Source: Planctomycetia bacterium
GTDB lineage: Bacteria; Planctomycetota; Phycisphaerae; UBA1845; Fen-1342
Length of the DNA: 64,000 nt
NCBI GenBank assembly: GCA_015709575.1
Contig: CP054190.1
Coordinates: 2,478,616 to 2,542,615 of the forward strand
Direction of reading: 5' to 3'
The translations under genes and the position numbers were made by a program. This document shows positions 28,840 through 50,574 of this stretch, piece by piece (the stretch's first letter is position 1; each line of letters opens with the position of its first letter). The notes under the pieces are model-generated. The model saw nothing but the letters and a program-made list of their open reading frames with translations. It ran no database searches and was not told the origin of the DNA.

Positions 28840-29598
28840 CTACTCCCTGGCCGGCGTGAGCGATGGCGGCGGTGCGGCTCCCCCCAACGGTGCGACAGAG
28901 GTCGTTGAGGACGGGGGCTTGAAGCCGCGCGGCCGCTGCACGGCCGGCATCGGCACATCGAAGCCGCGCGGCGTGGATTGCACCAGCACGCCATCCGCCC
29001 GTCGATAGCCGATCTGCACCTCAATGCGCTTGCCGGAGGGATCGACGTTGGGCGGCCAGCGCAGCACGAACCCGTAGTAATAGCCTCCGACGGCCCGCTT
29101 CCGCACGCGGAATCCGGTCGCGGCGACCTGGTCAAGCGTCCACTCGTGCAGCGGCTCGCGGACAAAGTCGCCGGCGGCATCCATGCCGATACGGGACATG
29201 GACAGAACCACCGGATTGGAGACAAAAGCCCCTTTTTCGGTGTCACGAGAGACAAAATACGTCAGAACGCGAAAGCCGACGGTTTTTCCCGTGGCGGAAT
29301 CCTGAATCCACGGAACGGCGCTCCAGAAACACTGCACGCTGACGATGTCGTCGCGCACCGGAACCGCCATCACGTCGATGTAGGCGGGCGGCGCGACCGC
29401 CACCGAGGGCGGCCGGCCGACGCCCGCGTAAGGGTCCTTTGCCGGTTCGGCGCAACCGGCTGCAATCCCTGCCACCAGCGCGAGGGCCAGCCAGACTTCG
29501 GCTTTGCAACGCCCTACGAATCCGCCACGCCGGCCGAGCAGAAAGCGGGCCGACGGTGCATCCGCGCCGGCACTACGCCGTCGGTGAAGGTCCGTCAT
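28840..29598 (-). CDS. Lipoprotein coupled to the giant secretin
   Basis: 252 residues. After a basic leader the signal segment VWLALALVAGIAAGC provides a good lipobox. The mature part has a beta-rich domain (VAVAPPAYIDVMAVPVRDDI, FWSAVPWIQDSATGKTVGF, RVLTYFVSRDTEKGAFV) and a Pro-rich tail. Its ATG overlaps the secretin stop by four bases (ATGA), implying coupled translation. Secretins often need a lipoprotein pilotin for outer-membrane insertion, so a pilotin or accessory role is a reasonable inference, although sequence similarity to GspS or PilF is not apparent. Confidence 0.65.
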   Translation of the reverse strand: MTDLHRRRSAGADAPSARFLLGRRGGFVGRCKAEVWLALALVAGIAAGCAEPAKDPYAGVGRPPSVAVAPPAYIDVMAVPVRDDIVSVQCFWSAVPWIQDSATGKTVGFRVLTYFVSRDTEKGAFVSNPVVLSMSRIGMDAAGDFVREPLHEWTLDQVAATGFRVRKRAVGGYYYGFVLRWPPNVDPSGKRIEVQIGYRRADGVLVQSTPRGFDVPMPAVQRPRGFKPPSSTTSVAPLGGAAPPPSLTPARE

Positions 29599-32500
29599 TG
29601 CCTTGCCCCGCGCAACGTGACCGGAACGTTGTAGCCGCCACCATCCGACTCCTCCTCGCGGCGGGGCGCCGCCTCGCGCGACGGGCCGTACTCGCCGGAA
29701 TCGTCCTGTGGCAACGGCGACGGCTCAATCGGATCGGCCGGCGCCTCGCCGTCGACCGGCGCGTCCGGATCGGTGATGCGGAGACTCTTAAGCAGCGGGC
29801 TGCTGAGCACATCCTGCGGAATACCGCCGGTCTCGTCGCGCACCTCGATGGAAATCGCGCGAAAATCCTCCACCGTTCGGATGATCGTGGGCGTCAGAAC
29901 GATCAGCAGTTCGGTACGCTCGTTCGAATTCTGTGAAAAGCGGAAGAGCGTGCCCAGCAGGGGAATATCGCCGAAGATCGGCACCTTCGTGTCGGTGATC
30001 TGCTCGCGCGACTGGATCATGCCGCCCAGCACGATGGTTTCGTTGTTCTTCACGGACACGACGGTCTGCGCCTCGCGCTTGAAGAAAATCGGGGCGCGCA
30101 CACCGGGACCGACATCCACGGTGGAGTTGGTCAGGTCGCTGACGATCTGCGTGATCTCCATGCGGACGTAGCCGTCGGAGTTGATCTGCGGCGTCACGGT
30201 CAACTCGATTCCGACATCCTGACGGCCGACGGAGGTCGTGATCTGCCCGCCGGTGGTGGTGCTCGTGCTGTTCACGTACGGGACGTCCTGCGTGACCTTG
30301 AAAACCGCCTCCTGCTTGTCCATCGCGGTGACCTGCGGCCGGCTGAGCACCTTGAGCGAACCTTCGGTCTGAAGCGCGTGCAGCAGGAAGTTGAAATCGT
30401 TGCCGGAGATGGTGAAGGTGAAGCCGCCCAATCCGGCGCCCGCGGCGCCGATGTCAGTACCGCCGACGAAGTCGAAGCTGGTCGTGTCGCCCGGTCCGGC
30501 CTTGGTGAACTGCAGGTCCTGGGCGGCCATCTCGACGCCCAGCTCGAGCGAGTTGTTCATCGTCACTTCCAGGATCAGCACCTGGATCATCACCTGCGGC
30601 GGCGCCTGGTCCAACTCGCGCAGCACGCTGAAGACGTTGTCTTCGAAGCGCGGGCTGTAGCTGAGAATCACCGTGTTGGAATCCTCGTTCGAGATGGCCA
30701 GCACCTCGCGCTCGCCGAGGCGCTGCGCCGAGATCTGGCCGTCGCCGAGCGACTCGAGCCGCGCCTTCTCGCCCTCGCTCCACTCCCGCACCGACGCGGC
30801 CACGCTTTCGGCCGTGTTGTTCTGCGGCGAGAAAACGATGGTCTTGCGATCGGGGATTTCCTTCGTGTCCAGGTCGTAAATGAGCTGCTCTGCCAGTTCG
30901 AGGTAGCCGCGCGTGCCGGCGACGACCACCGAGTTGGTGCGGCGGTCCGTCGTAAACGAGAGCTGCTCGCGGCCGCCCGCGGACCCAACGCCCTCGAGTA
31001 CGAGGTTGCGATCGGTGTTGGTGATCACGTCACCCGCGGCGCCGGTACCGCCGGTGCGCGTGCCGGTCTGGCGGGTCGCGCCCTGCGTGGCCGTGAAAAT
31101 GCCCTGGAGCGTGGCGACCATTTCCTCCGCGTCGGAGTTGCGCAGCGTGAATACGCGGATCTGCTGGGAATCCGGCGGCACGTCGATCGCGCGAATGAGC
31201 GACTCCATCAGCGGCATGGCCGGCGGCGGCGCCATGACGACCAGCGAGTTGGTTCGCAGGTCCGCGATAGTCACGATGTCGCGGCGCAAGGCGCGGAGTG
31301 TCTCGGACGAGCGTTCTGCGGTCTGCTCGGTCTGCCACATGACCATGACCTGCGACAGCGCGTCCGTCGCGCCGGTGCCGGCGCCGGTGGTGCGGCCGCC
31401 CGTACCGCCCTGTTGATTCACACCCACTGACCCGCCGCGGCCCTCGAGCATGCTTTGCAGCAGTTCGCCGGCGTTCTGGGCATCGGCCTTTTCCAACTTG
31501 AACATGCGGATCAGCGTGCCGCCGCTGGGATCGACGTCGTCGATGCGGCGGACGATGTCCTCGAGGTCGCGCAGCAGCGAGGTAGGCCCGCGTGCAACGA
31601 TCGAATTGGTTGCGACATCATGCGACACGGACAGATCAATCGAGCCGGCCACACCGCCCGCGGCCCCGCCGCCGCCGCCGCCGCCGCCGGCCTGGTTCTG
31701 GAAAAGCTGCTGGACGGACTGAGCCAGCTCCTCGGCCTTGGCGCGGCGCAGCGGCAGAATCAAAGTCATGCGCCCGATCTCGGAGGGCTGATCCAGCTCG
31801 CTGATCCAGCGATCCAGCAGGATCATGTCCTCCGCGGAAGCCGCCAGCAGCAGGCTGTCGGTGATGACGTCGGCGGACACGTAAATCGGCGCCGCGCTCG
31901 CCCCACCGCCCGTCGCGCCCGCCCCTGTGCCGGCGCCGCCCTGGCCACGGACGCGCTGCAGGATCTCATTGAGCTGCGCGGCGACATTTGAAGCCGTGTT
32001 GAGGCGCACCTTGCGTATCTTGAAGGACACGGTCGGGTCAAAGCTCTTGTCCAACCCGGCCACGACCTGCTCCGCCTCACCGAGCCAGTCGCGCGTGCCG
32101 GTAAGGACGAGCGAATTACTGCGCGTGTCGGGTGTGACAAACAGCACGTCCTTGAGGTCGCCCTGCGTTTCACCACCGCCGGCCTGCGTCTTGGCCTCCT
32201 TCTTGCGGTCAAAAACCTCCTGCAGCAGCGACGCGAGCTTGGACGCATCTCCGAACTTCAGGGCTACAAAGCGCGTTGCAACGGTCGGGTAGCTGTCGCT
32301 CTTGTCGAGGCTGCCCGCCAGGTCAGCGATCATGCGCTGCATCTCGTCCGTCGCGAGCACCAGCAGCGCGTTCGAGCGATCGTCCGCGACGATCACGGCG
32401 CTATCGCGGGCCTTGTTCGCGTCGGCGTCACCCAGCGCCTGGGCGCGCTTTTCCAACATGTCGTTGAGCTTCGTGGCCAGCGACGTGGCCGACTGATTCC

Positions 32501-35500
32501 GCAGGTTCACCACGCTCAGCCGGATGCCCAGGTCCATGCCGGTGCGATCCAGCCGGGTCACGATATCCGCCGCCAGGTCGCACGCCTCGCGCCGCCCCAT
32601 CACCACCAGCGTGTTCGTGCGCTTGTCGTGGTTCACCACGAGCGTGTACTGCAGCCCCGTGCCTCCGCCATCACTCGAAACCGGCGGCATCACCTCCGCG
32701 GGCGTGGTGTCGCCGGACTCGGCCGGGCGCTTCAGCGCCTTTTTGCTTTCGTCGAACAGCCCCCGGACCAGTTCCGCGACGCGTTCGGCGCTGGCATGCT
32801 GCAGGACGAACGTCCGCACCTGCGTGTCGGCGCCGATCGGCAACGTGTCGAACACGCCCACGATCTCACGCAGGGCGTCATTGTTCGCGGGCGTCGAGTA
32901 GATGATCAGCGAGTTCGTGCCCTTTTCCGCCAGCACACGGATCGGGCGCTCCAGGTCGAGTTCCGGCAAGGTTCGGCCGTCGGCGGTCGTCAGGCGCAGC
33001 TTGCGCACCACCTTTCGCCCGGTGACGCCGCCGCCCGAGGCCGCACCGCCGGCCGCCTGGGCCGCGGCTTCCTGTTCCTGCTGGATCATTTCTGTCAGCA
33101 GCGTCGCCAGGCTCTCGGCCGTCGCGTTCACGAGGCCGACGATAATCATGTCGCTAGCCTGGCGGCTGGCGACGCCGTCGCGCGGGGCGATGTCGATATC
33201 AATCGTTTCGATCAGCGCGCCGATTTCCTGGAAGTCGCGCTCGGTGCCGATGACGATCAACCCGTTCGCGCGGTCCTCGGCGATGACCGTGGCGCGAGTC
33301 TCGGCCGCTTCCTGGCGCTGGTCGTAGAGGCGTTGAAGGATCGGCGTCAGCTTGGCGGCCGCTTCGACGGCGTCAATGAAATCCAACGGCACGAACATCG
33401 GCGCGGCGCTGTAAGTGCCTGCGCCGGTGTCGAATTTCTCGATGAGCGCTGCGATCATCTCGATATACGTGTCTGTGGCGACCACCACCAGCGCGTTACC
33501 CTTCGGCTCCGGCACGATCGTGACGGTATCGCCCGGGCCGGGGCGGGCCGTCCGAGTGCGGATGAACTCGTCGACGATCTGCTGGATGATCGCGGCGACG
33601 GCCGGCGCCTTGGCTTCCGCAAGCTGAAACACCTCGATCCGAGGCTTCGGGCCGGTGACTTCCATCGCCGCCAGCACGCGCTTGTATAGCTCCAGATCTT
33701 CCGCATTGCCCGACACGATCACCTGACCGCTGCCAAACGGCACCGCCGTCAGCGTGCCGCGCAACTGACCCGATATCGACTTGACCGCCTCAATCGCCGA
33801 TTGCGTGGCGGCCGGCTCCTCAACCAGTTCCTGAATGTCCTGTGCCGTGGCGCCGCCGATCGTGGGGCGCACCGGCCGCGGCGCCGCAGGCTGGCCCGCT
33901 GCGGAAGCCGCCCCGCTTTCGGACACCCCGCCGGAAGCGGCGCCCGCCCCAGGCTTGCCATCACCACCATCCATCGCGCTCGCAGGATCGTCAGGGTGGA
34001 TTTCCTCGACCTCGACAGCCGGCCGGCGCGCCGGCACAGCATCCGTCGGCGGCGACGCGCTCGTCGGCACAGTCGTTGTGCGACGGGCCGGACGCGTTGC
34101 GCCTGATTGCGGGGCGCCGACGGGCGGCGAGCCTTCCGCCGCAGATGCCGGTTGTGTCGCAGGAGCGCTTCGCCGGGTCGGGCGACCGGAGCGGCCGTCT
34201 GCCGCGGGCTGAGTCCCGGCCGGCTGCGTGGACGGTGCGGGATTCGCGGACGCGGGTTGTGTCGATGCCGGGCGTCCGCCAGCGTTCGCCGCGGGCTTTT
34301 CCGGTTGGGCCTGGGCAAGCTTGCGCCCGGAAGAGGAGCCGCCTTCGCGCACCCGTGGACGACTGCCGCCCTTGTCGCCCGATTTTTCGGCGTTCGGTTT
34401 GTCGTCGGCATCCGGTATCAGGAGTGCCACCAGCGCCGGCCCGATCATCGGCGCGATCAGAGTGAGGCCGCCTGACGCCCCGCCGCCGGAAACGGCGGAT
34501 CGCTGCTCGCTGCCGGTCGGCCGGGCAACGATGGGCCGCGTTTCCGTCGCGGGCGCCTGCGCTCCGCCGCGTTCCTCGCTGTTCGGTGCGCGGCGCGGGC
34601 GATTGCCGCCCGGCTGCCGGCCGGGCATGGCGCCCCCACCGCCCCCGGGATTCTGCCGACCCGGATTGACGGCCGGTCCGCGCGTACCGATGTCAGCCGG
34701 ACCGACGGCGGGCGGGGGCGAGAAGCCGCCGCCACCCGGCTGAAAGTTCGGCCGCGGCCCGCTGGCGCCACCGCCGGTGTTGATCGGTGTGCGCGTGGGC
34801 GTGCGTCGCGGGGTCTGACCGGATGCGCCGGCGCCGCCCGGTCGCGCGCCCTGCAACGTGTTCGCCAGGTCAACGGCCTCGTCCGACGATAGATTGCGCA
34901 GCGTAACGACCTCGGTAATGAAGTCGCTGCGGCGGATCCGCGACAACTGCGCGACGACGTTTTCCACCATGCCGGCGCCGACGGGATCGCCGTAGGCCAG
35001 AATCGTATTGGTGTATTCATCGGCCGTGACGATAATGACGCGCGGCTCGCGATTCTCCGTGCGGGACTGGACCTGTTCGGCGTCGTTGAGGAGGCGCTGA
35101 ACGTTCTCCGCGAGCTGCACGGCATCCATGCCCAGCGGCACCTCGATGATCTTGACGGGCGCGGCGACGATCGTGGGGTCATCGAACTGCGCGACCAGCT
35201 CGCGAATGCGGGCGAGTTCTCCCTTCGACGCCTTCACGGTGATGATCCGGGCCACGTCGTTCGGGATCATGATCGGACCGCGCGACGGAACGGCCGACCC
35301 CATCCCGCCCATCATGCCCATGCCGCCGCCGCCGCCGCGCTGGGGAACGGTGGTGCTGAGGAATTTCTGAATAAACGCGACCACCTGAGAGGGCTGCGCG
35401 TTCCGAACGGCGATATCGACGGGCGTCGGCTCCGGCTGGTCAACGATGTTGATGATCCGCTCGACGAACACAAACGTCTGAGGCGAGCCGACCACCATGA

Positions 35501-38500
35501 TGCTGTTCGTGCGCGGATCGGGCAGCGCGGTGAACGCATCAAACGGCATGCGCCCGGAAGCACTGGCGCTCTGGCGATAGAGCATCATGTACTCCATCAG
35601 CCCGGAGGTAACCTGGTCCTTGACCGCAACCGCGTCGGCGTACTGCAACTCGTAGCGCCGCACCTGCAACTGCGTGTTCTCGGTGTCGAGTGTGGCGACG
35701 ATGTCCTGAATCTGCTGAAAGACATCGTTCGGCGCGCGGACCAGAAGCTTCTTGCTGTTGACGTCTCCCATAATCAGCACGCGCTGTCCACTCCCGGTCC
35801 CGGCGGGGCCGCCCGCGGTGCGGCCGGTGCGCTGCGTCGCCCCGCCACCGACGAACAACTGCGAGAGCTGATCCGCGAGGGCTTCCGGATCGGCGTGCAT
35901 CACGGCGATTTCACGAATGTCGCGCTTATACAACTGGTCGAGGCGCTCGATCTGGCCAAAAATCTGGTCACGCATCTCGCGCGGCGCCCAGACCATGATC
36001 GTGCTGGAAGCCGCGTCGGCCGCGATCTTCACCGGCGACGCGCTGGCCGCGCCCTCGCCGATCGTCATGCCGCGCCGCCGACCGGGCGCCGCCACCGAGC
36101 CGCCGCCGAAGACCTGGTTGACCTGCTCGGCGATGGCGACCGCGTCGCCAAACTGGCAAACGTAGATCTCCGCTTCCGCCAGCCGTTCCGCGATATCGAG
36201 CAGGCGGATCTGCGCCTCGACGATCGGGATGTCCTTCTGCTGACAGGCGAAGATGATCGTGTTGCTCCGCGGATCACCGCTGATCTCCACCGAACCGAGC
36301 GCCGCGGGATTCGCGCCGCTGCGCACCCGCCCGCCCTCGCCCAGACCGCCGCCGCGCGATGCGCCGCCGCCGGCCCCGGCCGCGGCGAAAATCTCCTGCA
36401 ACATCGGCAGGATGTCGTCCACCCGGGCCTGCTGAAGCTCTACATGGCGGATCACGACCAGATCGCGACCCTCCAGCTCCTCCAACTCGCGAATCGTGTT
36501 CTCGATGATCTCCATCACGTCCGGCGGCGAAGACACGAGCAGCGAGTTGGTTGTGACGTTCGGTACGATCTCAACGGAGTCGATCTTTGCGCCAGCGCCC
36601 TGCCCGCCCGGCAGCGACACTTCCATCTGCATTTGCAGCATCTGCATGATCTGCTGCTGCTGGGGGTTTCCCTGACCAGGCTGCATCTGCTGCCGCCCGC
36701 CGCCGCCCCCGCGATTCTGCGAGGCGCCGATGCCCAGCGCCTGCTTGAGGTTCTGGGCCGTTTCCGTCGCGTCGAGGTTCAGCAGCTGAATGACCTTCAG
36801 GTCCACCTGCCCGGGCGGAATGTCCAGCTCGCGGAGCAGCTTGCGCAGCTCCGGCAGATCGGATTCCTCGCACTTGACGATCAGGTAGTTGTGCCCGGGA
36901 TCCGTCGCCAGGCGGATGCGCGTTCCGCCCTGCTGGCGCCGCCCACCGCGCTGCTGCTGCTGCTGGCCGATCATCTGGGCCATCTGGTCACGCAGGCTAG
37001 CGCCAGCCCCGGCCTCCTTGTTGTCGCCATCGCGACCCTGCCCCTGCTGACGGCCCTGTTGCTGCTGCTGCTGTTGCGGCTGCTGGGGAACCTGCACCTG
37101 CCGATCGTTGAACATCTGGTCCACGATCCGGGCAGCGAACGCCACATCGCCATACTTGAACTTGAAGATGCGGATCACCTCACCGGCGCTCTGGTCCTCC
37201 GTAAAGGTGTCGATCACTTCGTCGAGCGTCGAGACGCGTGAATCCTCGCCCACGATGGTGATCTTGCCATCCGGAAGGAAGACCACGGTCGGTCCGGATC
37301 GACCTGGCGCAGCCGTCGCCTCCGGCCCGGCACTCGATCCGCTCGATGGCGCGTCAGTCGCTGCCGGTCGCGGAGAATCCGCGGCGGCGTTCACCGCGCC
37401 CGCGCGTCGCAGCCCCGAGGCGGGCGGCGACGGATCGGTCGCGGGCGATGACGGTGACGGATCGGATGTTTCGTCGAACGCGACCAGGCGCACGCGCGGC
37501 GCAGGGCCGGCCGCAGCTCCCTCGTCATGGCGGGCGATCACACCGGCGATGATCCGATCGCGCATTCCTGGATTCGCGTCAGACCGCGTCCCGTTGCCGC
37601 TCGTGGGACCATTGCGCTCCGGCTTTGCGCCGGACGGACCGTTGCCGCGCCGCTCCCGCTGCTTCTGGAGGTAATCCGGTTCCTCGTCCTCGCCCCACAA
37701 CTCCTCGACAATGCCGGGAGCGGGCTTGCCTGAGTCCGGGGCGAAGTTCACCTGAATGTTCGGGTTCGTCTGCCTGAGGGCGGAGATCAGCTTTTCGCGG
37801 TCGATTGCGCGCACGTCGCGCACCACCGTGCGCGTCTTGACCTTTGCGCGCGCCTCCAGTTCGCGGATCATCCGCTCGATTGCGGGGAACTCGTTGGGCC
37901 GGCATCGCACGGAGATGTACGTGCCGTCCCAGTCCGCGCTGAGGTCCGGTCCGCCGTCCGAAGGGCTGGGGAAGTAGTCTTCCAGGTCCCACAGGATGTC
38001 GTTCGCGTCGCCGCGATTGATATCAACGAACTTCACGACCTTGCCGCCGATCGAGCCGTCCGCGAACGTCTGCTCGTTGGCGGCCTCGATCTGCGCAATG
38101 TACTGCTCGACCTGGCGCATCTTGCGGCGGTTGGCGGTGACGTAGAGGCGGTTGCGGTACGTGTCCTCGGTAATCGTCACCGTCTCGGCGGCCGTCTTTG
38201 CCCCGCCGAAGATCGCATCGAGCGCGTCATACATCTTCGTCGAGTCGGTGTTCTTCAGGTCCTTGACCATCAGTTCGGGGGCGAGTGCCCCATTGCTGGC
38301 CAGCTCCTCCACGATGCGGGCGGCCTCATCCACGTCGCGCGGCAGTCCGGCGATCAGCAGCGAGTTGCTGCCCGCGTCGGCCGCGACACGCACCTTTGCG
38401 GCGCCGCCGCGCCCGCTGGAGCCGACGATCTGCTGCAGCGCGGTGGCCACCTCGGTCGCCGGAGCCGCGTCTACCGTTACGATCCGCGTTACCTCGCCGG

Positions 38501-41500
38501 AAGCATCCTCGGCATCCACCATCGCGATCGTGTCGCGGGCCAGCGCCTGCAATTCCTCCGGTGCGAGCACGATGAGCTGGCTGCCGTTGGCGACCACGGA
38601 GGTCGCGAAGGCCGCGCCCATCCGCCGCCCGCCCTGCATCTCCTGCGCCTTGGCTCGCAGTAGCTGGTCGATGTTCGGCGCGACCTGGTCTGCCCGCGCG
38701 TTTTTCAGCGTATAGGCGCGCGTGCCGGCCGTCGGAACGCTGATCGAGTCGAGCTTCGCGACCAGCGCATCCACAAACGGAATGGTCTCGGCCGGGGCCA
38801 TGACGACCAGTGTGTTGGTGGTCGGCTCGGGGTAGGCCCCGGGCTTCATCTGCCCCGGCTTGGCCTGCACCTGGCTGGCGAAGAGCGCCGTCTGCACGGC
38901 CAGCGCCACCTGCGTGGCGTCCAGCACCTTCAGCGTATAGGTGCGGACCACCAGGTCCGGCGCCGGCACGTCCAGCGTCTCGATCAGCGTGCGGATTTCC
39001 TTCATCTTGACGGGCGGCGCCTTGACCACCAGCGTCGTGCCGTTGGTCGAGACCGTCAGGTCGCCGGCGGCCCCGCGCCCTCCACGGGACGCGCCGAACA
39101 TGGTCTCGATCAGCCCCTTGGCCTGGTTGGCGTCGACGTGCCGCAGTTCGAACGTGGCCGGCGCGCGATCCACCGTGTCCTCAGCGTCCAGGCGCGCGAT
39201 CAGTGACTCGGCCTCGGGCATCAGCGACTGCGGCATCTGCATCTGGATCTGATTGAGGCGCGTGTCCGCTGCCAGCGTGATGCGGTCGGCGATCTTCTGG
39301 CCCTTGGTACGCGCTACCTGCGTGACGAAAGTCTGGCGCAGCATCTCGACAATCGCCGAGGCGTCGCCGTTGCGGACCTGCACGAATGACTGCACCGGCT
39401 CCAGCGACTCGGCGTCCGTGGCAAAGCCGCCGAGGAATTTCTCCACGTCGGGCAGCATGTCCTGCGGGGCGTTGATGACAAGTGTCTCGGTCAGCGGCTC
39501 GGCGCTGAAGCTGGCCCGCAGGCGGTCGGGGCGTGGCTTATTGCCGAACACGTTGTTCATGATGTTGGCGAGGTTGTTCAGGTCGAGACCGGGCAGCTTG
39601 CGCGTGACGACCGTCATCGTCCCGCTCTTGAGCTCATACACCTTGCGAAAGTCCTCGACGATCTGATCGATGTCGGCCCACAGAATCCCGCTGGCGGTGA
39701 TGGTGATGGTCTCGGTGCCGGCGTCGCCGTCGCAGTTGAACACCACCGGCTTTCCCTGCGTCTTGACCCGCAGCGCGTTCTGAATCTTGGACGCGATCAC
39801 GGCGGTATCAGCGCCGGCGATCCGCACCGTCTGCGTGCGCACGTCATTGGCGGTCGGGTCGTCGATCTGGGCGACCAGCTCGGCGATCTCTTCCATCTTG
39901 GCGCGCGGCGCATCCACCACAAGTTGCACGCCTGAGGTGACGATCCGCACCGATCCGCCGCTGACCGAACCGCGCCCGAAGCCGAATCCCCCGCCGCCCC
40001 CGCCACCGCGGGCGACCATCTGGTTCACCGCGTCCGCGACTTCTCGCGGCTGCGAATACTTGAGCACGAACACCCGCCGCTCGGGATTCTCCGCGGCGAT
40101 GGCCTCGTCCATCCGCTGGGCGAAATCCTTGACCTGCTCCAGCGTCGCGCGATCGGCCCGCACGATCAGCGAATTGGTGGTCGGCTCGGCCACCACGCTG
40201 GCCGTCGACCCGCCAAACGGCCCGGCGCGCCGCGCCCCTTGCAGCATTTGCGAAATGTGCTGGGCCACCTGCGAAGCGTCCGCACGCGCCAACGGCAGGA
40301 TCTCCGGCCGGTCGCGCTCCGGCGGCACGTCCATCTGCATCATCAGCGCGCGGATCTCGTCAATCGCCGGCTGTACGCCCTGCACGAACAACTCGCTCCC
40401 CACCACGCTGAAGACCACGCTCGAACGGCCGAGGCGCGGGTGCTGGTACTGGCGATAGAGCATCTGCAGCGCGTTTGCGACCTCGTTCGGGTCGGCGTCC
40501 GTCAGCTTGAAGGACTCCGTCACCGGCGTGTCGCTCAGCGAGTTCTCGTCCCACAGCTTGAGCAGCTCATCCACTCGCGGCCACTTGTCATCCGGACAGG
40601 TCACGATCAGCACACCCGCCTCGTCCAGCGGAATCACGCTCGAGGACGGCGGCGCCGCCCCGCGCATCGGCTGGCGACCACCAAACTGCGGCGGCCGGCG
40701 CATCATTCCCCCTTGCGGAACTGAACCAACGTCCAGCAAGGACTGCACCGTCGGCGCCACCTGGCTGGGCAGCAGCGTGCGCAGCTCGATCACGTGCCGC
40801 GTGCCCTCGCTCTGCTCCACGTCCAGCAGCGCGATCACGTCCTCGACGCGCTTCATGTTTTCGCGATCCGCCACGACGTGAAGCGCATTGTTCGGCACGT
40901 CGGCAACGATCGTCACGGCCCGCGCTGCGCCGGGGCGGCTCTGCCCCTGCGAGAGCGCATTTACGGTGTCCTCGATCTCACCCGCCGAGGCATGCTCCAG
41001 CTTGAACGTGCGCATGTTGCTCGGGATGGCCTGGTCGATCACCTTCAGCATGTCCGCCACGCGCTTGTGACCGTCCTCATTGGCGTACACGATCAGCGCG
41101 TTCGTGCGATCGTCCGGCACGATTCGGATCATCTTCTTCGCCCGTTCGGCCACATCCTCGAGGATGCCGAACGGATCCTGCTGTCCCACCACGCCGCCCA
41201 TCGGCTGCGGCTGCGGCTGCGGCTGACCGGGCTGGCCCGGCCGCTGAACAACCGGCTGCGGCTGCGGAATGCGGCCACGCTGCCAGGCCGGCTGCCCACC
41301 CTGTTCCTGCTGGAAAATGCTGTTGAGCAGGTTGGCGATGTCCACCGCGTTGCCGTTGCGGACCTCGACCACCTTGGTGTCGAACTTGCCGATGTCCGGC
41401 ATCTTGTCCAGTTCGTTGAGTACGTTGGTGATCTTGGCGTGATCCTCGATCGTCGCCTTCACAATCAGCGTGTTCGTGCGCTCATCGGCGACGATCCGCA

Positions 41501-42989
41501 ACGATTCCGTCCCGCCGACCATCTCCCACTGCCGGGTCTGCGGGTTGAACTGCCGCTGCGGCGGCCCGGCCCCGATCATGGTCTGGACCATCGTCTGCAT
41601 CTCGCGGACGTTGGTCTTGATCTTGTAGAGCCGGATCACGCCCGGATCGTTCGGGCGCATGTCGATCCGCTCGCGCAGAACCAGGAACTTCTCGATGTCG
41701 CGTACCAGCGCCGAGATCTTGATCTGGTTCGTGTCGCCGACGTCACTCATCCGCGCGTAATCGCCGATGACGCCGCCAAACGCCTCCACGATCTTCTGCG
41801 CCGGCTGATCCTTGATCTGGATGTACACCGTGCAGTAGTCCATCGGGCGAAGGTTCGCCTCCTTGAACTTCTCCACGGACTCAAACACGTACTCCGGATC
41901 GACCCGCGCCGGCAGATCCGACAGCGGCAGGACGTACAGGTGGTCCGAGACATTCACGAACCGGTAGCCCAGCTCGTGCATGATCAGATTCAGCTCGTCG
42001 ATCGCCTCGTCTGTCGTGAAACGGCGGGTGGTCTTGTAGGTCAGCTCGCCCGGAATCGTCGCCATGTCGCGATTCATCCACGGCTTGCCCAGGCGCTGCT
42101 CAAAATGCGCCAGCACCTCTCCCCAACTCGCGTTTTCGAAGTTGAACCATTCGGTCGCCTCCTCGTCCGTTCCCGTGAGGACCGGCAGCGGCGGCTCCCC
42201 CGCTCCCGACTTCCCGGCGACTTCTCCGTCCGGGTCGGGCTGATGCTCAGATCCACCGTGTCCCACCCCTCCGTCCGGCGGCGCCTGTTCGCCGTCGGAA
42301 GTCCCCGGTTGCGGGAACCGCGGCGACGGCGTCAAAGCGCCCGGCCCGCCGCCCGGCGCAGGAGCGGTCGGTTGGACGACGCCCGTGTCCGTCTTGCCCG
42401 AAGCCGCTTCGTCTGAGAAGTCCGGCTGCGGCTTGATGGCGGGATGCTGCAAGTCAGGACGAGACGATCGATCCAGCACGCCCTGGCGACCCGTCGCGGG
42501 CGGCTGCGCCGGCGGAGTCGCCTCTCTGGTTCCGCCTTCAGGCGCCGCACCGCCTGCGCCGGTGCGCGTCGAACGCCGAAGTTCTTCGATCCGGCGGCTG
42601 CGCTCCGCGCGGGAATCCACCGACGGCGGCAGCACTCCGGACGCGGCGGCCGGCTGCGTTGAGGCAGGTGGAACAACAGGCTGAGTAGCTGGCGGCTTGG
42701 CCACCGGCGGCGCAGCAGGCTGCGTGGTTACGGCGGGCTGTGTGCTTGCCGCGGGCTGCGTTGCAGGCGATCCGCCCGTCCGGATTCCGCCCGAGCGCAC
42801 GGGGCGGATCGGCTGCGTTGTCACCGGTGAGGGCGGCTGCGCCGGCGGATCGGCGAACAGCTCGTCAAACTCGGCGTTATCCACCGGCTTGCCGCCCGGT
42901 GCCTGCCACGCCAGCACGCTTAGCGGCAACAGCAGCCCTGCGGTCAGCAGCACCGACAGCCCGCGGATGCGGCACATTGCATGAATCAT
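29595..42989 (-). CDS. gspD: Giant multi-N-domain secretin (GspD-like)
   Basis: Outer-membrane secretin of a type II secretion/type IV pilus-like system, about 4,464 residues against a usual 600-800. Signal peptide 1-28 (SVLLTAGLLLPLSVLA), a TQP-rich linker to about 280, and an N0/STN-like domain (about 280-356, WFNFENASWGEVLAHFEQRL). Then about 37 divergent N-domain-like repeats, each with a (R/T)TNxLxV-type strand (TNTLIV, TNALIV, TNSLIV and so on), in blocks of about 16, 9 and 12. Linkers lie at about 1776-1903 and 2837-3080. The secretin pore domain is at about 4128-4373 (PPQVMIQVLILEVTM; VPIFGDIPLLGTLF; ELLIVLTPTIIR), then an acidic tail. The frame is uninterrupted. Start chosen at 42989 for the signal peptide; 42977 is possible. 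Confidence 0.93.
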   Translation of the reverse strand: MIHAMCRIRGLSVLLTAGLLLPLSVLAWQAPGGKPVDNAEFDELFADPPAQPPSPVTTQPIRPVRSGGIRTGGSPATQPAASTQPAVTTQPAAPPVAKPPATQPVVPPASTQPAAASGVLPPSVDSRAERSRRIEELRRSTRTGAGGAAPEGGTREATPPAQPPATGRQGVLDRSSRPDLQHPAIKPQPDFSDEAASGKTDTGVVQPTAPAPGGGPGALTPSPRFPQPGTSDGEQAPPDGGVGHGGSEHQPDPDGEVAGKSGAGEPPLPVLTGTDEEATEWFNFENASWGEVLAHFEQRLGKPWMNRDMATIPGELTYKTTRRFTTDEAIDELNLIMHELGYRFVNVSDHLYVLPLSDLPARVDPEYVFESVEKFKEANLRPMDYCTVYIQIKDQPAQKIVEAFGGVIGDYARMSDVGDTNQIKISALVRDIEKFLVLRERIDMRPNDPGVIRLYKIKTNVREMQTMVQTMIGAGPPQRQFNPQTRQWEMVGGTESLRIVADERTNTLIVKATIEDHAKITNVLNELDKMPDIGKFDTKVVEVRNGNAVDIANLLNSIFQQEQGGQPAWQRGRIPQPQPVVQRPGQPGQPQPQPQPMGGVVGQQDPFGILEDVAERAKKMIRIVPDDRTNALIVYANEDGHKRVADMLKVIDQAIPSNMRTFKLEHASAGEIEDTVNALSQGQSRPGAARAVTIVADVPNNALHVVADRENMKRVEDVIALLDVEQSEGTRHVIELRTLLPSQVAPTVQSLLDVGSVPQGGMMRRPPQFGGRQPMRGAAPPSSSVIPLDEAGVLIVTCPDDKWPRVDELLKLWDENSLSDTPVTESFKLTDADPNEVANALQMLYRQYQHPRLGRSSVVFSVVGSELFVQGVQPAIDEIRALMMQMDVPPERDRPEILPLARADASQVAQHISQMLQGARRAGPFGGSTASVVAEPTTNSLIVRADRATLEQVKDFAQRMDEAIAAENPERRVFVLKYSQPREVADAVNQMVARGGGGGGGFGFGRGSVSGGSVRIVTSGVQLVVDAPRAKMEEIAELVAQIDDPTANDVRTQTVRIAGADTAVIASKIQNALRVKTQGKPVVFNCDGDAGTETITITASGILWADIDQIVEDFRKVYELKSGTMTVVTRKLPGLDLNNLANIMNNVFGNKPRPDRLRASFSAEPLTETLVINAPQDMLPDVEKFLGGFATDAESLEPVQSFVQVRNGDASAIVEMLRQTFVTQVARTKGQKIADRITLAADTRLNQIQMQMPQSLMPEAESLIARLDAEDTVDRAPATFELRHVDANQAKGLIETMFGASRGGRGAAGDLTVSTNGTTLVVKAPPVKMKEIRTLIETLDVPAPDLVVRTYTLKVLDATQVALAVQTALFASQVQAKPGQMKPGAYPEPTTNTLVVMAPAETIPFVDALVAKLDSISVPTAGTRAYTLKNARADQVAPNIDQLLRAKAQEMQGGRRMGAAFATSVVANGSQLIVLAPEELQALARDTIAMVDAEDASGEVTRIVTVDAAPATEVATALQQIVGSSGRGGAAKVRVAADAGSNSLLIAGLPRDVDEAARIVEELASNGALAPELMVKDLKNTDSTKMYDALDAIFGGAKTAAETVTITEDTYRNRLYVTANRRKMRQVEQYIAQIEAANEQTFADGSIGGKVVKFVDINRGDANDILWDLEDYFPSPSDGGPDLSADWDGTYISVRCRPNEFPAIERMIRELEARAKVKTRTVVRDVRAIDREKLISALRQTNPNIQVNFAPDSGKPAPGIVEELWGEDEEPDYLQKQRERRGNGPSGAKPERNGPTSGNGTRSDANPGMRDRIIAGVIARHDEGAAAGPAPRVRLVAFDETSDPSPSSPATDPSPPASGLRRAGAVNAAADSPRPAATDAPSSGSSAGPEATAAPGRSGPTVVFLPDGKITIVGEDSRVSTLDEVIDTFTEDQSAGEVIRIFKFKYGDVAFAARIVDQMFNDRQVQVPQQPQQQQQQQGRQQGQGRDGDNKEAGAGASLRDQMAQMIGQQQQQRGGRRQQGGTRIRLATDPGHNYLIVKCEESDLPELRKLLRELDIPPGQVDLKVIQLLNLDATETAQNLKQALGIGASQNRGGGGGRQQMQPGQGNPQQQQIMQMLQMQMEVSLPGGQGAGAKIDSVEIVPNVTTNSLLVSSPPDVMEIIENTIRELEELEGRDLVVIRHVELQQARVDDILPMLQEIFAAAGAGGGASRGGGLGEGGRVRSGANPAALGSVEISGDPRSNTIIFACQQKDIPIVEAQIRLLDIAERLAEAEIYVCQFGDAVAIAEQVNQVFGGGSVAAPGRRRGMTIGEGAASASPVKIAADAASSTIMVWAPREMRDQIFGQIERLDQLYKRDIREIAVMHADPEALADQLSQLFVGGGATQRTGRTAGGPAGTGSGQRVLIMGDVNSKKLLVRAPNDVFQQIQDIVATLDTENTQLQVRRYELQYADAVAVKDQVTSGLMEYMMLYRQSASASGRMPFDAFTALPDPRTNSIMVVGSPQTFVFVERIINIVDQPEPTPVDIAVRNAQPSQVVAFIQKFLSTTVPQRGGGGGMGMMGGMGSAVPSRGPIMIPNDVARIITVKASKGELARIRELVAQFDDPTIVAAPVKIIEVPLGMDAVQLAENVQRLLNDAEQVQSRTENREPRVIIVTADEYTNTILAYGDPVGAGMVENVVAQLSRIRRSDFITEVVTLRNLSSDEAVDLANTLQGARPGGAGASGQTPRRTPTRTPINTGGGASGPRPNFQPGGGGFSPPPAVGPADIGTRGPAVNPGRQNPGGGGGAMPGRQPGGNRPRRAPNSEERGGAQAPATETRPIVARPTGSEQRSAVSGGGASGGLTLIAPMIGPALVALLIPDADDKPNAEKSGDKGGSRPRVREGGSSSGRKLAQAQPEKPAANAGGRPASTQPASANPAPSTQPAGTQPAADGRSGRPTRRSAPATQPASAAEGSPPVGAPQSGATRPARRTTTVPTSASPPTDAVPARRPAVEVEEIHPDDPASAMDGGDGKPGAGAASGGVSESGAASAAGQPAAPRPVRPTIGGATAQDIQELVEEPAATQSAIEAVKSISGQLRGTLTAVPFGSGQVIVSGNAEDLELYKRVLAAMEVTGPKPRIEVFQLAEAKAPAVAAIIQQIVDEFIRTRTARPGPGDTVTIVPEPKGNALVVVATDTYIEMIAALIEKFDTGAGTYSAAPMFVPLDFIDAVEAAAKLTPILQRLYDQRQEAAETRATVIAEDRANGLIVIGTERDFQEIGALIETIDIDIAPRDGVASRQASDMIIVGLVNATAESLATLLTEMIQQEQEAAAQAAGGAASGGGVTGRKVVRKLRLTTADGRTLPELDLERPIRVLAEKGTNSLIIYSTPANNDALREIVGVFDTLPIGADTQVRTFVLQHASAERVAELVRGLFDESKKALKRPAESGDTTPAEVMPPVSSDGGGTGLQYTLVVNHDKRTNTLVVMGRREACDLAADIVTRLDRTGMDLGIRLSVVNLRNQSATSLATKLNDMLEKRAQALGDADANKARDSAVIVADDRSNALLVLATDEMQRMIADLAGSLDKSDSYPTVATRFVALKFGDASKLASLLQEVFDRKKEAKTQAGGGETQGDLKDVLFVTPDTRSNSLVLTGTRDWLGEAEQVVAGLDKSFDPTVSFKIRKVRLNTASNVAAQLNEILQRVRGQGGAGTGAGATGGGASAAPIYVSADVITDSLLLAASAEDMILLDRWISELDQPSEIGRMTLILPLRRAKAEELAQSVQQLFQNQAGGGGGGGGAAGGVAGSIDLSVSHDVATNSIVARGPTSLLRDLEDIVRRIDDVDPSGGTLIRMFKLEKADAQNAGELLQSMLEGRGGSVGVNQQGGTGGRTTGAGTGATDALSQVMVMWQTEQTAERSSETLRALRRDIVTIADLRTNSLVVMAPPPAMPLMESLIRAIDVPPDSQQIRVFTLRNSDAEEMVATLQGIFTATQGATRQTGTRTGGTGAAGDVITNTDRNLVLEGVGSAGGREQLSFTTDRRTNSVVVAGTRGYLELAEQLIYDLDTKEIPDRKTIVFSPQNNTAESVAASVREWSEGEKARLESLGDGQISAQRLGEREVLAISNEDSNTVILSYSPRFEDNVFSVLRELDQAPPQVMIQVLILEVTMNNSLELGVEMAAQDLQFTKAGPGDTTSFDFVGGTDIGAAGAGLGGFTFTISGNDFNFLLHALQTEGSLKVLSRPQVTAMDKQEAVFKVTQDVPYVNSTSTTTGGQITTSVGRQDVGIELTVTPQINSDGYVRMEITQIVSDLTNSTVDVGPGVRAPIFFKREAQTVVSVKNNETIVLGGMIQSREQITDTKVPIFGDIPLLGTLFRFSQNSNERTELLIVLTPTIIRTVEDFRAISIEVRDETGGIPQDVLSSPLLKSLRITDPDAPVDGEAPADPIEPSPLPQDDSGEYGPSREAAPRREEESDGGGYNVPVTLRGARQ
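33990..34481 (-). other. Internal hydrophobic segment and TQP-rich linker in the secretin
   Basis: Within the secretin gene, 34430-34480 encodes GLTLIAPMIGPALVALLIP (about residues 2837-2855), a 19-residue uncharged helix. It is followed by about 130 residues rich in Thr-Gln-Pro-Ala (PASTQPASANPAPSTQPAGT). The order signal-like helix then TQP linker repeats the layout at the protein's N-terminus, as expected if a second secretin gene had been fused in frame. Confidence 0.6.
36945..37090 (-). repeat. Polyglutamine tract in the secretin
   Basis: CTG/TTG triplet runs on the plus strand (36951-36965 and 37041-37085) encode two Gln-rich stretches, QQQQQRGGRRQQGG and QQPQQQQQQQGRQQGQ. They form a flexible insert within one N-domain repeat. 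Homopolymeric triplet runs such as these are prone to length change. Confidence 0.75.
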
Positions 42990-43070
42990 CACCCTGATTC
43001 TCCCTCGCGCGCCCGAACCACCCGGTCCGTCGGACCGATGCATCGAGCACCGCGTCGTGCGTCGAGTGCT

Positions 43071-43220: not shown

Positions 43221-44450
43221 TCACACGCCGCGCACAACGTCCGGAAGCTGGGCTTCCTCGAGCGTGACCCGCTGCTTGAAATGACCGCCGATGGGGTAAA
43301 AGAAATCCTCGACAGCCGCCGGCTGCCCGGCCTGCTCGCGCGTCACCCGCACGATCATCCCGCGCGGATGCACCAGCACCAGCCGCCCGTCATCCACGGC
43401 ATCGCCGATCCGGAAGCGCTGGATGTCGCCCCCCGGCGAGCGATCGTCCCGAACGTACGCGACGAAGTCACCGGCGTGAGACGTTGTACCGACCACGAAC
43501 ATCCGGTCGGCGTCCTTTCGCGGATCCACCGGTGGTGCCGGCGGAACGTGGGCGACCGGCGGTCGATCCGGCGGCGGATCGCTCGGTGGCGGGGGCGGAG
43601 GCGGTGGAGGCGGTGGCGGCGGCGGAGTTTTGCGGAACCAGTCAATCGCCGCCAGCGCGGGAAACTGGTCCTCGTCGTAGGTAAACCGCTTCCGCGAGCG
43701 GGCCGCCCACACCTCATCATCCGCGCCTGGCGCCGGAAGCGCCCGCGACTTCACTTGGGGCGACGGGGTCGCCAGCAACGTGACAATCGTCATCCCGACA
43801 CGGATCCGCTCCGGCCCGATTGCACCGGCCGCCGCACCGCCGGCGCTTCTGGCGGCCCCGCCGCGCGCTTCGCGCCCGCGGGGTCGAACGGTGCTGGCGG
43901 GGCGGGATGGCTCGGGCGGCGGAGCCGACGACGACGCCTGCGCGAGCGGATCCGCCGGCGACATGCGGAGCGAGCGAATTCGGATCGGGTACGGCCGCTG
44001 ATACAGTTCCTGAAGGAAGCCGACTACTCCGCCCATGGTCCCCGTGAAACTGACCGAAAGCGCCACCTCGACGAACCCGCGCTTCGAAGGCGAGGCCGAC
44101 GGAATCGGCCGAAGCGCGACGTCTTCGGCCAGTCCGTGCGTGTCCAGCAGGCGGCTGAGGTCCGCCTGGAGACGACGATCCGTCTCCGCCACCTGGTCCT
44201 TCACCGGCTCGGCGTTGGAAATCATCGTCTCGGTGCGCTCGATCCAACGCCGATGCGACGGAACGACGTCTGTCGCCTGCTGTTCGAGCGTCGTGCGGAG
44301 GGAGCGCGCGGCGACAATCTGCGCGTCGATGCTCTTGAATGGCGCGATGATGAAGCGCTGCACGCCGAGGTAGCCCAGCCCCAGGCCGGCCGCCGTCAGC
44401 ACCACTGCGCCGAGCTTCTTTTCGCGATTCGTCACGCTGCACTCCGCCAC
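43221..44450 (-). CDS. GspM/PilO - GspC/PilP fusion protein
   Basis: 409 residues. One N-terminal TM (about 14-33, GAVVLTAAGLGLGYLGVQRF) is followed by a coiled-coil and a ferredoxin-like GspM/PilO-type domain (about 45-170, ending VEVALSVSFTGTMGGVVGFLQELY). After a Pro-rich linker with a run of about 14 prolines near residue 290 comes a C-terminal beta domain (about 315-395; MFVVGTTSHAGDFVAYVRDD, FRIGDAVDDGRLVLVHPRGM) with GspC homology-region/PilP character. GspC and PilP bind the secretin N0 domain, so this protein would bridge the inner-membrane platform and the giant secretin encoded next. Assignment of both halves rests on pattern and context. Confidence 0.65.
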   Translation of the reverse strand: MAECSVTNREKKLGAVVLTAAGLGLGYLGVQRFIIAPFKSIDAQIVAARSLRTTLEQQATDVVPSHRRWIERTETMISNAEPVKDQVAETDRRLQADLSRLLDTHGLAEDVALRPIPSASPSKRGFVEVALSVSFTGTMGGVVGFLQELYQRPYPIRIRSLRMSPADPLAQASSSAPPPEPSRPASTVRPRGREARGGAARSAGGAAAGAIGPERIRVGMTIVTLLATPSPQVKSRALPAPGADDEVWAARSRKRFTYDEDQFPALAAIDWFRKTPPPPPPPPPPPPPPSDPPPDRPPVAHVPPAPPVDPRKDADRMFVVGTTSHAGDFVAYVRDDRSPGGDIQRFRIGDAVDDGRLVLVHPRGMIVRVTREQAGQPAAVEDFFYPIGGHFKQRVTLEEAQLPDVVRGV

Positions 44451-44474: not shown

Positions 44475-46097
44475 TCAGAACTCTCGAGCGAAACGCTCCC
44501 GTTCCGCCTTACGGGCGTTGACTGCCGCAGGCGAATGGAACTCCTCAACGTCCACAACGCGCAGCATCACCTGTGTGCTGCCGCTGAAGCCCGGCTCAGC
44601 CGTGTTCCCCTCGACCCACGAACCCTGCTCCACGCGATAGAGCTTCGGACGGGAGGAATCCTGCGGCTCATCCGGCAGGCCGCCGGCGCGCAGGTCGGCA
44701 AGTACGTCCACAAACTGCTTGACCCGCTCGCGATTCGTCGCGATCAGGTCCACCCGGATCGACGACGAGGAACTGTCGCAAACCAGCGAGCGGATGATCA
44801 CCTCGCGGCCCGGCCCCGGCAGCGCCCGCGACAGGATCATCAGGTGATCCAGCCACACGGCGTCGTACTGCCACTCATCCCATTCGGCGGAGCGGTTCGT
44901 CAGGTCGCGCGCGTCGCGCACCACCCGTCGCAAATCCTCCATCCCCTTGCGGACGTCCGCCAGTTCAGCGGCCTTGGCGCGATACGCGCTCCACGTCAGC
45001 GCAGCCGCTCCCACCGCCGCCGCCGTCGCGGCCATGCCCAGCAGGCGCGCCCGGCGGATGATCGTCTCGGAGCGGCGCACCACGCGCTTGGGATTGAGGA
45101 AATCGAGCTCGAGCAACCCCCGCGTGCTCAGCCCCCACGCCAAGCCCAGCACCGCCGAAAAACCACGCAGCTCAGCGCCGCGGTCGCCGGTGATGCCCAG
45201 CGGCAGCGTCGGGTCAAACAGGTCCGTCACCAGCGCCAGGCGCTTCTCCAGCGCCTGTGCCAGTTCCGTCTCGACACCGGTGTGTCCGGCCACGATCACG
45301 TTGTCGATGACAACATTGCTCTCGGTCGCGCGATACGCCTGCAAGGAGCGCACCACCTCGACCACCAGGTCGTGAATCGCCCCCGATATCGCGTCCTGCT
45401 CCCCCCCGCCGCCGACCACCACCAGCCGCGATGACTGCCAGCGATCATCATCCCCCAGCACCGGCACGCTGACATTCGCGGCGCGGGTGAACGCCAGCCG
45501 CCCACCGTGAACGACGTTGATTTCGGTCAGCGCCGGGCCGACGTCCACGAACAGCACGCGCCGCTCCGCCATCCCCGGCAGGTGCATCACCGACACGAGG
45601 TTGGCGTACGGCCGCAGCCCGATGCGCGCCGGCCGCAGACCGGCCGCGGCGCAGGTCTCGCGAATCCGCCCCAGCACATCCTTCCGCACCGCCGCCAGCA
45701 GCACTTCCGTCGCCGTCTTGCGCTCGGCGTCGGCCGTCAGCGTGACGAAGTCCAGCGCGGCATCCTCGACCGGGAAGGGCAGTTCCTTCACCGCCTGGAA
45801 TCGCACGACGTCCGGCAATTCAGCGATGGGTGTCGGTGGGAGCGGCAGACGCGCGATAACGGACTTGTCTCGCGGCACATCCACGATCACGTCGCGCCGC
45901 CGGATGCGGTGCGCCGCCATCGCCGCCGCGATCACACCGCCCAGCGCCGCGGGATCATCCGTGTTGACCTCCGCAGGGATACGGTGCGCGTGCGCGTCCT
46001 CCAGCGTCATCCGCCCGCTGCCGACACGCGCGACCAGCAGGCGGACGGTGCGCTTGTCCCAGTCGAGGCACAGCACTTTGCGACGCATACGCATCAC
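44475..46097 (-). CDS. gspL: GspL-type protein: PilM-like actin fold fused to PilN-like domain
   Basis: 540 residues. The N-terminal cytoplasmic half is a PilM/GspL actin-like ATPase fold (VLCLDWDKRTVRLLVARVG at about 8-26, the phosphate-2-like segment VLFVDVGPALTEINVVHGG near 195). A TM (about 350-370, LLGMAATAAAVGAAALTWSA) follows, then a PilN-like periplasmic coiled coil and ferredoxin-like domain (EVIIRSLVCDSSSSSIRVDL). In type IV pili these are two proteins (PilM, PilN); in type II systems they are joined as GspL. It recruits the secretion ATPase GspE to the platform. It lies 24 bases before the GspM/GspC fusion gene. Confidence 0.8.
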   Translation of the reverse strand: MMRMRRKVLCLDWDKRTVRLLVARVGSGRMTLEDAHAHRIPAEVNTDDPAALGGVIAAAMAAHRIRRRDVIVDVPRDKSVIARLPLPPTPIAELPDVVRFQAVKELPFPVEDAALDFVTLTADAERKTATEVLLAAVRKDVLGRIRETCAAAGLRPARIGLRPYANLVSVMHLPGMAERRVLFVDVGPALTEINVVHGGRLAFTRAANVSVPVLGDDDRWQSSRLVVVGGGGEQDAISGAIHDLVVEVVRSLQAYRATESNVVIDNVIVAGHTGVETELAQALEKRLALVTDLFDPTLPLGITGDRGAELRGFSAVLGLAWGLSTRGLLELDFLNPKRVVRRSETIIRRARLLGMAATAAAVGAAALTWSAYRAKAAELADVRKGMEDLRRVVRDARDLTNRSAEWDEWQYDAVWLDHLMILSRALPGPGREVIIRSLVCDSSSSSIRVDLIATNRERVKQFVDVLADLRAGGLPDEPQDSSRPKLYRVEQGSWVEGNTAEPGFSGSTQVMLRVVDVEEFHSPAAVNARKAERERFAREF

Positions 46098-49917: not shown

Positions 49918-50574
49918 CTACTCTCCATACGCGGACGGCAGGTCGGCTTCCGACTTTGGCCGCTTGGACGCACTCGCGTCGATCCGCTCCACGTCGCTGA
50001 AATCAATCCGCCCCAGCCGGCCGTCAAACGTGATCCGTCGTCCGCGTCCCAGCACGTCGCGGATCACCCATCGCACTGACTCGGATGTGCCGTCCGGGGC
50101 GAACTCAACAAACACCGGCTCGTCCAGCGAATCCACCGCGATCGGTTCCTCCGTGAACTCGGTGAACTGGATCGACTCGCTGTCGATCTTGATCGGCGGC
50201 GGCCCTTCCGGCAGGCGCATCACCGCCTCCACCCATGCGTCCTCCAGGGACGCTGGAATTCCCGCCCAGTCATCCTCCACGCGGACGTACACCTCCGGCG
50301 CCCGCAGCGGGTCGCGCTGCCGATAGACGGCCAGCGAGCCATCCAGCGCAAACACCACCCGATAGCGCCGCGATTCGTTCATCGCCTGCGCACGGCACAT
50401 CGCCATCAGAGCGCGCGCCCGGACCGTGGACTCATCCAGTTGCTCACTGCGGCGTGCTTGCGAAAAATCAGGCCAGGCAAACACCGCCAGAACCGACAGC
50501 AGCGCCACCACCAGCAGCACTTCCAGCAGCGTAAACGCGCTGCGCCGTGCGGACCGGGTGGCTCTGTCGGGCAT
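49918..50574 (-). CDS. gspH: Type II secretion minor pseudopilin GspH
   Basis: 218 residues. Leader SARRSA|FTLLEVLLVVALLSVLA has Ala at -1 in place of the near-universal Gly, then Phe at +1 and Glu at +5. The hydrophobic helix is followed by a soluble domain with DESTVRARALMAMCRAQAMN, the conserved GspH/FimT helix, and beta strands (YRVVFALDGSLAVYRQRD). A GGCGGGTATGA element and a GAAGGGAAG sequence lie just before the ATG. Confidence 0.8.
   Translation of the reverse strand: MPDRATRSARRSAFTLLEVLLVVALLSVLAVFAWPDFSQARRSEQLDESTVRARALMAMCRAQAMNESRRYRVVFALDGSLAVYRQRDPLRAPEVYVRVEDDWAGIPASLEDAWVEAVMRLPEGPPPIKIDSESIQFTEFTEEPIAVDSLDEPVFVEFAPDGTSESVRWVIRDVLGRGRRITFDGRLGRIDFSDVERIDASASKRPKSEADLPSAYGE

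Follow-up and report, generated by a model that had tools for sequence, protein, structure and literature searches.

Secretins assemble into rings that carry few periplasmic domains, and the GspD secretin usually has three N1-type modules in its periplasmic part. Thermus thermophilus PilQ has been described as a 350 Å complex in which six N-domains make up a stack of six rings (PMC5745081), and a single giant gene product, of 13,493 aa, is mentioned for a cultured strain of the Phycisphaerae (PMC8882080). Our search of the open-access literature turned up no account of giant secretins; most subscription papers and all bioRxiv preprints lie outside that scope. Here we analyse a planctomycete locus, contained in a 64,000-nucleotide stretch of DNA hereafter called the window, which encodes a GspD-type secretin whose design is kept module by module within its family and is cut mid-module into two or three genes in related families. 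These observations suggest a very long channel across the envelope.

Architecture and identity of the giant secretin

The first-pass annotation of the locus, made by a model, had described one uninterrupted 13.4-kb frame of about 4,464 residues. This is borne out on the minus strand, where the frame runs from an ATG at 42989 to a stop codon at 29595-29597 with no internal stop and with a GC content of 68/48/85% at the three codon positions. Long plus-strand frames lie antisense to the giant gene (42981-45434 and others), as is typical of high-GC DNA, and they are probably spurious. In a Pfam search, PF03958 (Secretin_N) matched the whole protein with an E value of 1.7e-253 and in 27 stretches at E<=0.01, while PF00263 (Secretin) matched as a single domain (residues 4205-4371, E 3.3e-49), in agreement with the C-terminal secretin domain recognised earlier. 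A module HMM of our own, built from 18 seed repeats and then refined on relatives, detected 36 modules, two of them by merging separate half-hits. Two further modules were read by eye, one interrupted by the linker J1 and one degenerate, which brings the number of N1-type modules to 38; the previous estimate of about 37 N-domain-like modules was therefore right. The N0-like domain was assigned by eye alone, the Pfam search of the protein having yielded no N0 match. As judged from its sequence, the protein thus comprises a signal peptide, a Pro/Gln-rich stretch reaching to about residue 280, an N0-like domain and then about 38 N1-type modules, the two hand-read ones included. The coordinates are collected in Table 1.

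Table 1. Features of the giant secretin, from its N- to its C-terminus, and of the neighbouring genes, in window coordinates
Feature	Position	Strand	Residues or size	Basis and remarks
Giant GspD-type secretin	29595..42989	minus	4,464 aa, 474 kDa	Frame, Pfam, NCBIfam
N-terminal signal peptide	42909..42989	minus	1-27	By eye
N0-like domain	41895..42146	minus	282-365	By eye
Degenerate N1-type module	41658..41831	minus	387-444	By eye
Modules 1-16	37857..41627	minus	455-1711	Own HMM
J1 module, first half (beta-alpha)	37749..37838	minus	1718-1747	Family alignment, by eye
J1 linker	37296..37748	minus	151 residues	Intramodule; equivalent place is a gene boundary in L119 and L128
J1 module, second half (beta-beta-alpha)	37194..37295	minus	1899-1932	Family alignment, by eye
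Modules 17-24	34944..37175	minus	1939-2682	Own HMM
J2 module (25), first half (beta-alpha)	34830..34913	minus	2693-2720	HMM, alignment, AlphaFold
J2 linker	33765..34829	minus	355 residues	Disordered in model; equivalent place is a gene boundary in split families
Hydrophobic stretch within J2 linker	34413..34466	minus	2842-2859	Sister-family counterpart signal-peptide-like, with AxA-Q
J2 module (25), second half (beta-beta-alpha)	33660..33764	minus	3076-3110	HMM, AlphaFold
Modules 26-36	30606..33638	minus	3118-4128	Own HMM; last eight modelled
Secretin pore domain	29820..30587	minus	4135-4390	Pfam, sequence search, NCBIfam
Lipoprotein gene	28840..29598	minus		Overlaps secretin stop codon; lipobox by eye
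GspM-like	43221..44450	minus		NF040576 E 5e-5, below cut-off
PilM/GspL-like	44475..46097	minus		PF11104 E 1.4e-22, over cut-off; TIGR01175 below cut-off
GspK	46203..48014	minus		PF21687 E 9.3e-21, over cut-off; NF037980 E 4.1e-25, below cut-off
GspJ-like pseudopilin	48011..48868	minus		PF07963 prepilin motif just over cut-off; PF11612 E 5.8e-5, below
GspI-like pseudopilin	48881..49915	minus		NF047828 E 2.5e-7, below cut-off; no Pfam match
GspH-like pseudopilin	49918..50574	minus		PF07963 prepilin motif over cut-off; TIGR01708 E 6.2e-6, below
GspG major pseudopilin	50700..51146	minus		TIGR01710 132 bits, over cut-off; PF08334

To identify the type of secretin, we compared the protein with NCBIfam models. 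The last 1,080 residues scored 460.2 bits against the GspD model TIGR02517, above its equivalog cut-off of 351.35, whereas the window secretin stayed below the cut-offs of the PilQ model TIGR02515 (214 bits; cut-off 284) and of the SctC model TIGR02516 (174 bits; cut-off 238). GspD chains were also the best matches in both the sequence search and the fold search. Together with the Pfam and HMM results, these data support the earlier proposal of a GspD-type secretin of giant size that carries N-domain modules by the dozen, and the best reading of the sequence is that the protein serves a type II secretion system (T2SS) of the Phycisphaerae as its GspD secretin. Among the T2SS-like neighbours, which lie upstream in the same orientation, GspG alone passes an NCBIfam equivalog cut-off, and GspK and the PilM-like protein pass Pfam cut-offs. 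The H-, I-, J- and M-like genes remain below their equivalog cut-offs, which counts against reading the protein as the stacked channel of a T2SS GspD. No GspE or GspF was recognised by eye beside the operon; elsewhere in the genome there are four regions with GspF-type domains and three further secretins.

Downstream, the lipoprotein gene has a homologue adjoining the secretin in all 24 loci of the order (L031-L054), and none was found at E<=1e-4 in ten more distant loci (L055-L064). The lipoprotein has no match in Pfam or NCBIfam, and its place beside the secretin gene suggests that it is a candidate pilotin. It is followed by an MreD-like gene (28157-28738, minus strand; Pfam E 0.0012, below cut-off), a homologue of which occurs close to the secretin in 12 of the 13 loci from the family (L031-L043) and was not found in L044-L064. 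Farther upstream, the window contains a minus-strand gene for an 863-aa protein with prenyltransferase/squalene-cyclase-like repeats (54558-57149) and a plus-strand efflux cassette (57393-62280) in which a Cys/His-rich membrane-fusion-like protein precedes a 1,040-aa RND-type pump, all assigned by eye.

Conservation of length and of individual modules

We asked how far this architecture extends among relatives, the loci of which were collected by phmmer search. A secretin match was present in every one of the 150 relatives searched. The earlier suggestion to look for conservation of length in homologues was followed: a frame of 4,025-4,916 codons is present in 14 of the 27 genomes of the window's family, with the architecture repeated. 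Of the other 13 genomes, 11 were inspected: nine frames leave contig ends, the frame of L075 is broken into two, and that of L093 reaches the contig end and appears broken near the C-terminus. A frame of more than 4,000 codons is listed for 15 of 17 genomes of the sister family (f7, the second family of the order), and for several families of the class only frames of ordinary length are listed. Among the matches listed for 246 genomes of the phylum, all frames of more than 4,000 codons fall within this class, and a link to the crateriform structures of Planctopirus, as these appear in PMC5394234, is for that reason unsupported. By title, most of the 79 named loci belong to metagenome assemblies of Phycisphaerae, Phycisphaerales or Planctomycetota. 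The giant L143 is labelled Verrucomicrobia and the split locus L117 Alphaproteobacteria, by mislabelling of the assembly or by transfer. That the giant frame is an assembly artefact can be dismissed for practical purposes: the genome is a single contig, and the relatives, with a like architecture in many independent assemblies, refute it.

As counted with our HMM, ten near-complete proteins of the family have 35-49 modules, ten of the sister family 38-48 and ten loci outside the order but within the class 21-50; a further such locus, L070, has 3. Most family relatives have one module more than the window protein between its modules 22 and 23 (window 33165-35462 aligned), and L035 has about ten additional modules between modules 10 and 11.

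To compare modules one by one, we searched for reciprocal best matches. In 13 family proteins (L031-L043), such matches were found for 29-35 of the window's 36 HMM-defined modules, with a mean identity of 45-52% between orthologous modules, compared to 21% among the modules of the window protein itself. Of these matches, 28-35 form one collinear chain, and what is out of order amounts to a single pair; chains obtained after shuffling (200 shuffles each) had means of 8.3-9.5 and a maximum of 14. Collinearity is weaker in ten sister-family proteins (L044-L053), where the chains comprise 8-16 modules, the shuffled maxima are 8-11 and L053 is not above the shuffles, and the chain exceeds the shuffles in one of ten proteins from outside the order (L055-L064). 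The reciprocal and collinear matches across the family indicate that every module has its own conserved identity, and on this comparison of sequences the length of the secretin is no local accident. The varying module numbers and the insertion in L035 are what neutral growth of a repeat, with extra modules of little function, would produce; this explanation is nonetheless very improbable, as orthologous modules are about 50% identical and fixed in order and the frames have stayed open over 12-15 kb across many genera.

The same data bear on how the modules are arranged in space. Modules follow one another at short, regular intervals (median 8 residues, 10-90% range 5-15), and the loops within modules are rich in Gly, Gln and Arg, with 23% Gly compared to 3% in the cores. 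Such low-complexity loops would suit flexible arms, in which only the pore-proximal modules form rings and the rest are extended chains that bind substrate, the peptidoglycan, the pseudopilus or inner-membrane parts; flexibility has also been described for the rings of Thermus PilQ (PMC5745081). However, we regard such arms as rather unlikely, given the regular spacing and the retention of module identity and order across the family.

Joints within modules and split genes

The two longest linkers of the window protein, J1 and J2, lie within modules, between a beta-alpha and a beta-beta-alpha half. These half-modules can be aligned across the family, the first half at J1 being the poorest. In relatives, the equivalent places are gene boundaries. 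For example, at loci L066-L069 a modules-only protein with 24-36 modules (2,792-3,823 aa, that of L066 being incomplete at the stretch end) adjoins a secretin with 12-15 modules (frame of 1,435-1,908 aa). The split set comprises 16 loci: a script called 18, of which L075, L136 and L141 were removed because their breaks resemble mid-gene frame breaks, and L145 was added; an additional break in L116, at a masked stretch, was left out of the count. In these 16 loci the genes are 5-610 bases apart on one strand. As read by HMM and by eye, with some sequences incomplete, a first half-module closes the upstream chain, and the second half opens the secretin. The last HMM match of the upstream chain is a first half in 11 of the 16; this half was found by eye in four near-identical species (L106, L107, L116, L117), and in L147 the helix alone is visible. 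The first HMM match of the secretin is a second half in 12 of the 16 (in L092, the second match), this half being identified by eye in L098, L100 and L110 and covered by a weak match in L145. A signal peptide was seen by eye at the start of the secretin in 14 of the 16 loci, the heads of L098 and L145 being incomplete. The downstream gene of split relatives is thus ordered as signal peptide, linker and second half-module. In L119 and L128 the array is distributed over three genes, and the first boundary falls at the J1 position and is of the same make. Some modules-only proteins (e.g., L069, L107 and L128) end in a short Arg/Lys/Ser/Gly-rich tail after the first half-module.

We then compared four split pairs with nine fused giants, among which L044 and L099 represent one genome. 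In 32 of the 36 comparisons the collinear chain was longer than any obtained in 500 shuffles; in two it matched the longest shuffled chain, and in two it was shorter. The modules-only proteins correspond mostly to the N-terminal two thirds of the fused giants. In the split relatives, the two proteins would be held together by completing one shared module. An array whose two or three chains meet inside a module suggests in-line continuity, and breaks in mid-module, not between modules, again argue against flexible arms. The construction in three segments, the joints in split modules and the signal-peptide-like linker stretches of relatives were absent from the first-pass annotation and are new here.

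These last stretches were found in the J2 linker of the sister family, which contains an uncharged hydrophobic segment ending in AxA-Q or near it, in 13 of 15 proteins by pattern and in the other two by eye. The looser pattern used for this count was picked after viewing the sequences, and some of the 15 are close kin (L047, L048), so that the 13 of 15 should be taken as descriptive. In the same 15 proteins this pattern matched once elsewhere in the module part and twice at N-termini. A strict pattern, in which Gln, Asn and His are forbidden, gave eight matches in the sister family, two in linkers and one of doubtful register. At J1, a match was present in 4 of the 14 sister-family proteins that reach this joint, and L054, from a third family, has one match at J2 and one elsewhere. 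In the window's family, a match at J2 was found in 3 of 18 proteins and three matches occurred elsewhere, which is not above background, and the hydrophobic stretch of the window's own J2 linker has no AxA-Q motif. Since J2 in this family seldom carries the cleavage-like motif, and carries it no more often than other sites do, the window protein is probably left as one whole chain. Outside the order, the script detected no J2 linker in any of 11 proteins. An internal translation start at J2 is not favoured, a Met preceding the hydrophobic part in 7 of the 15 sister-family sequences, as counted by eye.

To order the fused and split states, a tree was built from the last module and the pore domain only, and 26 of its 96 rows, of unknown state, were excluded from the fused/split count. 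One fused/split change suffices on this tree, and the count with three states is 3, the least possible being 2. The fused rows lie outside, and the split L092 sits in an open fork; L071 was labelled "no linker" by the script, although its J2 linker is present in the alignment. The split genes therefore look derived, and the internal signal-peptide-like stretch may predate the split. A fuller scenario, which we offer tentatively and hold to be possible but doubtful, combines these elements: the tube, of about 100 nm and about 39 rings, would be made of three segments, each joint being a split module to which both chains contribute one half, all around the joint ring. The order's ancestor would have made a polyprotein with internal signal peptides, cut after export, and the sister family would still conserve the signal peptide at J2; in the split families the cuts would have become gene boundaries, and the window's family would have lost the cut and kept a single chain.

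Cutting of a precursor at J1 and/or J2 could also release N-terminal parts that act apart from the pore, for instance as an inner-membrane scaffold. In relatives these parts do have genes of their own, a signal peptide being visible in most, and the AxA-Q stretches of the sister family could be read in the same way. However, each part is left at the boundary with only one half of a module, for which a rejoining of the parts makes most sense, and the scarcity of the motif at J2 in the window's family also speaks against it; we consider such a separation of functions distinctly unlikely.

A proposed stacked channel and its relation to known secretins

Two single-chain stretches, the last eight modules with the pore and the J2 region, were modelled with AlphaFold. 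In the first (mean pLDDT 69.5, pTM 0.36), all eight modules were predicted as beta-alpha-loop-beta-beta-alpha, with many loops at pLDDT <50; the structure prediction advised in the first-pass annotation thus gave this order of elements in each of these last eight modules. In the second (pTM 0.30), confident halves (pLDDT mostly >80) flank a disordered linker. The best Foldseek matches were GspD and, for the J2 region, N-domains of GspD and XcpQ, with low TM-scores: the best seven matches, all GspD structures, had TM-scores of 0.14-0.22 by query length and 0.29-0.37 by target length, at an rmsd of 19-24 Å. These low TM-scores and high rmsd values indicate that the module arrangement of GspD is not recovered in the predicted monomers. 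The disorder predicted for the long linker and the low pTM would fit flexible arms as well.

We consider it probable, though by a modest degree of confidence, that the modules form a continuous stack of rings and thereby one channel, the GspD of a type II system. The C-terminal domain would provide the pore in the outer membrane, and the N0-like domain and the about 38 beta-alpha-beta-beta-alpha modules would extend it towards the inner membrane. Each module would most likely form a ring with its counterparts in other subunits, by analogy with known secretins, and the rings would stack into a single continuous channel. With an assumed 2.5-4 nm per ring, about 39 rings would measure roughly 100-150 nm, and a 15-mer would have a mass of about 7 MDa. 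Such a channel might serve to guide the pseudopilus or cargo across the deep planctomycete periplasm. The continuous array of modules is well supported by the sequences, and from it we infer ring formation and channel length. A tube tens of nanometres long had already been proposed as an inference, which it still is, yet the proposal is strengthened by the collinear module orthology, the even spacing and the meeting of chains in mid-module. Several points weigh against the stacked channel: (i) the monomer models lack the inter-domain geometry of GspD, (ii) the channel supposes a single ring symmetry for 38 different modules, and (iii) the J2 (355) and J1 (151) linkers could be hinges or cleavage sites. 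No report of a secretin object of about 100 nm in this class was found in the open-access literature. In the account of a planctomycete of a different class, the periplasm is greatly enlarged at times and its width varies by tomography (PMC5394234); with such variation, a rigid 100-nm tube would span the periplasm in places only.

A family with about 38 modules conserved position by position means that the periplasmic part of a secretin can be extended roughly tenfold, and it prompts one to ask how type II systems bridge an envelope that is deep or varies in depth. With joints in split modules, two small fragments, each half a module, would be enough to test whether the array is continuous, and the joints may represent a naturally occurring case of two chains completing one fold. 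The presence of a signal-peptide-like stretch within a fused chain hints that bacteria may process polyproteins. One bacterial precursor that is cleaved at an internal signal peptide is the Bradyrhizobium cytochrome b/c1 polyprotein FbcH; the sister-family giants, though unrelated to it as proteins, may be processed in a like manner.

Among known secretins, GspD (TIGR02517; structures 5wq7, 6i1x and 6hcg) shares with the window protein the secretin domain, the N1-type modules and the company of GspG, GspK, PilM/GspL-like and further T2SS-like proteins. The window protein differs in its about 38 N1-type modules, in the linkers inside two of them and in the lipoprotein without Pfam or NCBIfam match encoded downstream. 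Deinococcus radiodurans DR_0774 (8co1) was matched by both sequence and fold search, but it has 740 residues and so far fewer modules. Thermus thermophilus PilQ resembles the window protein in having N-domains beyond the usual number; it is, however, a type IV pilus secretin of 757 residues, with six rings compared to about 39.
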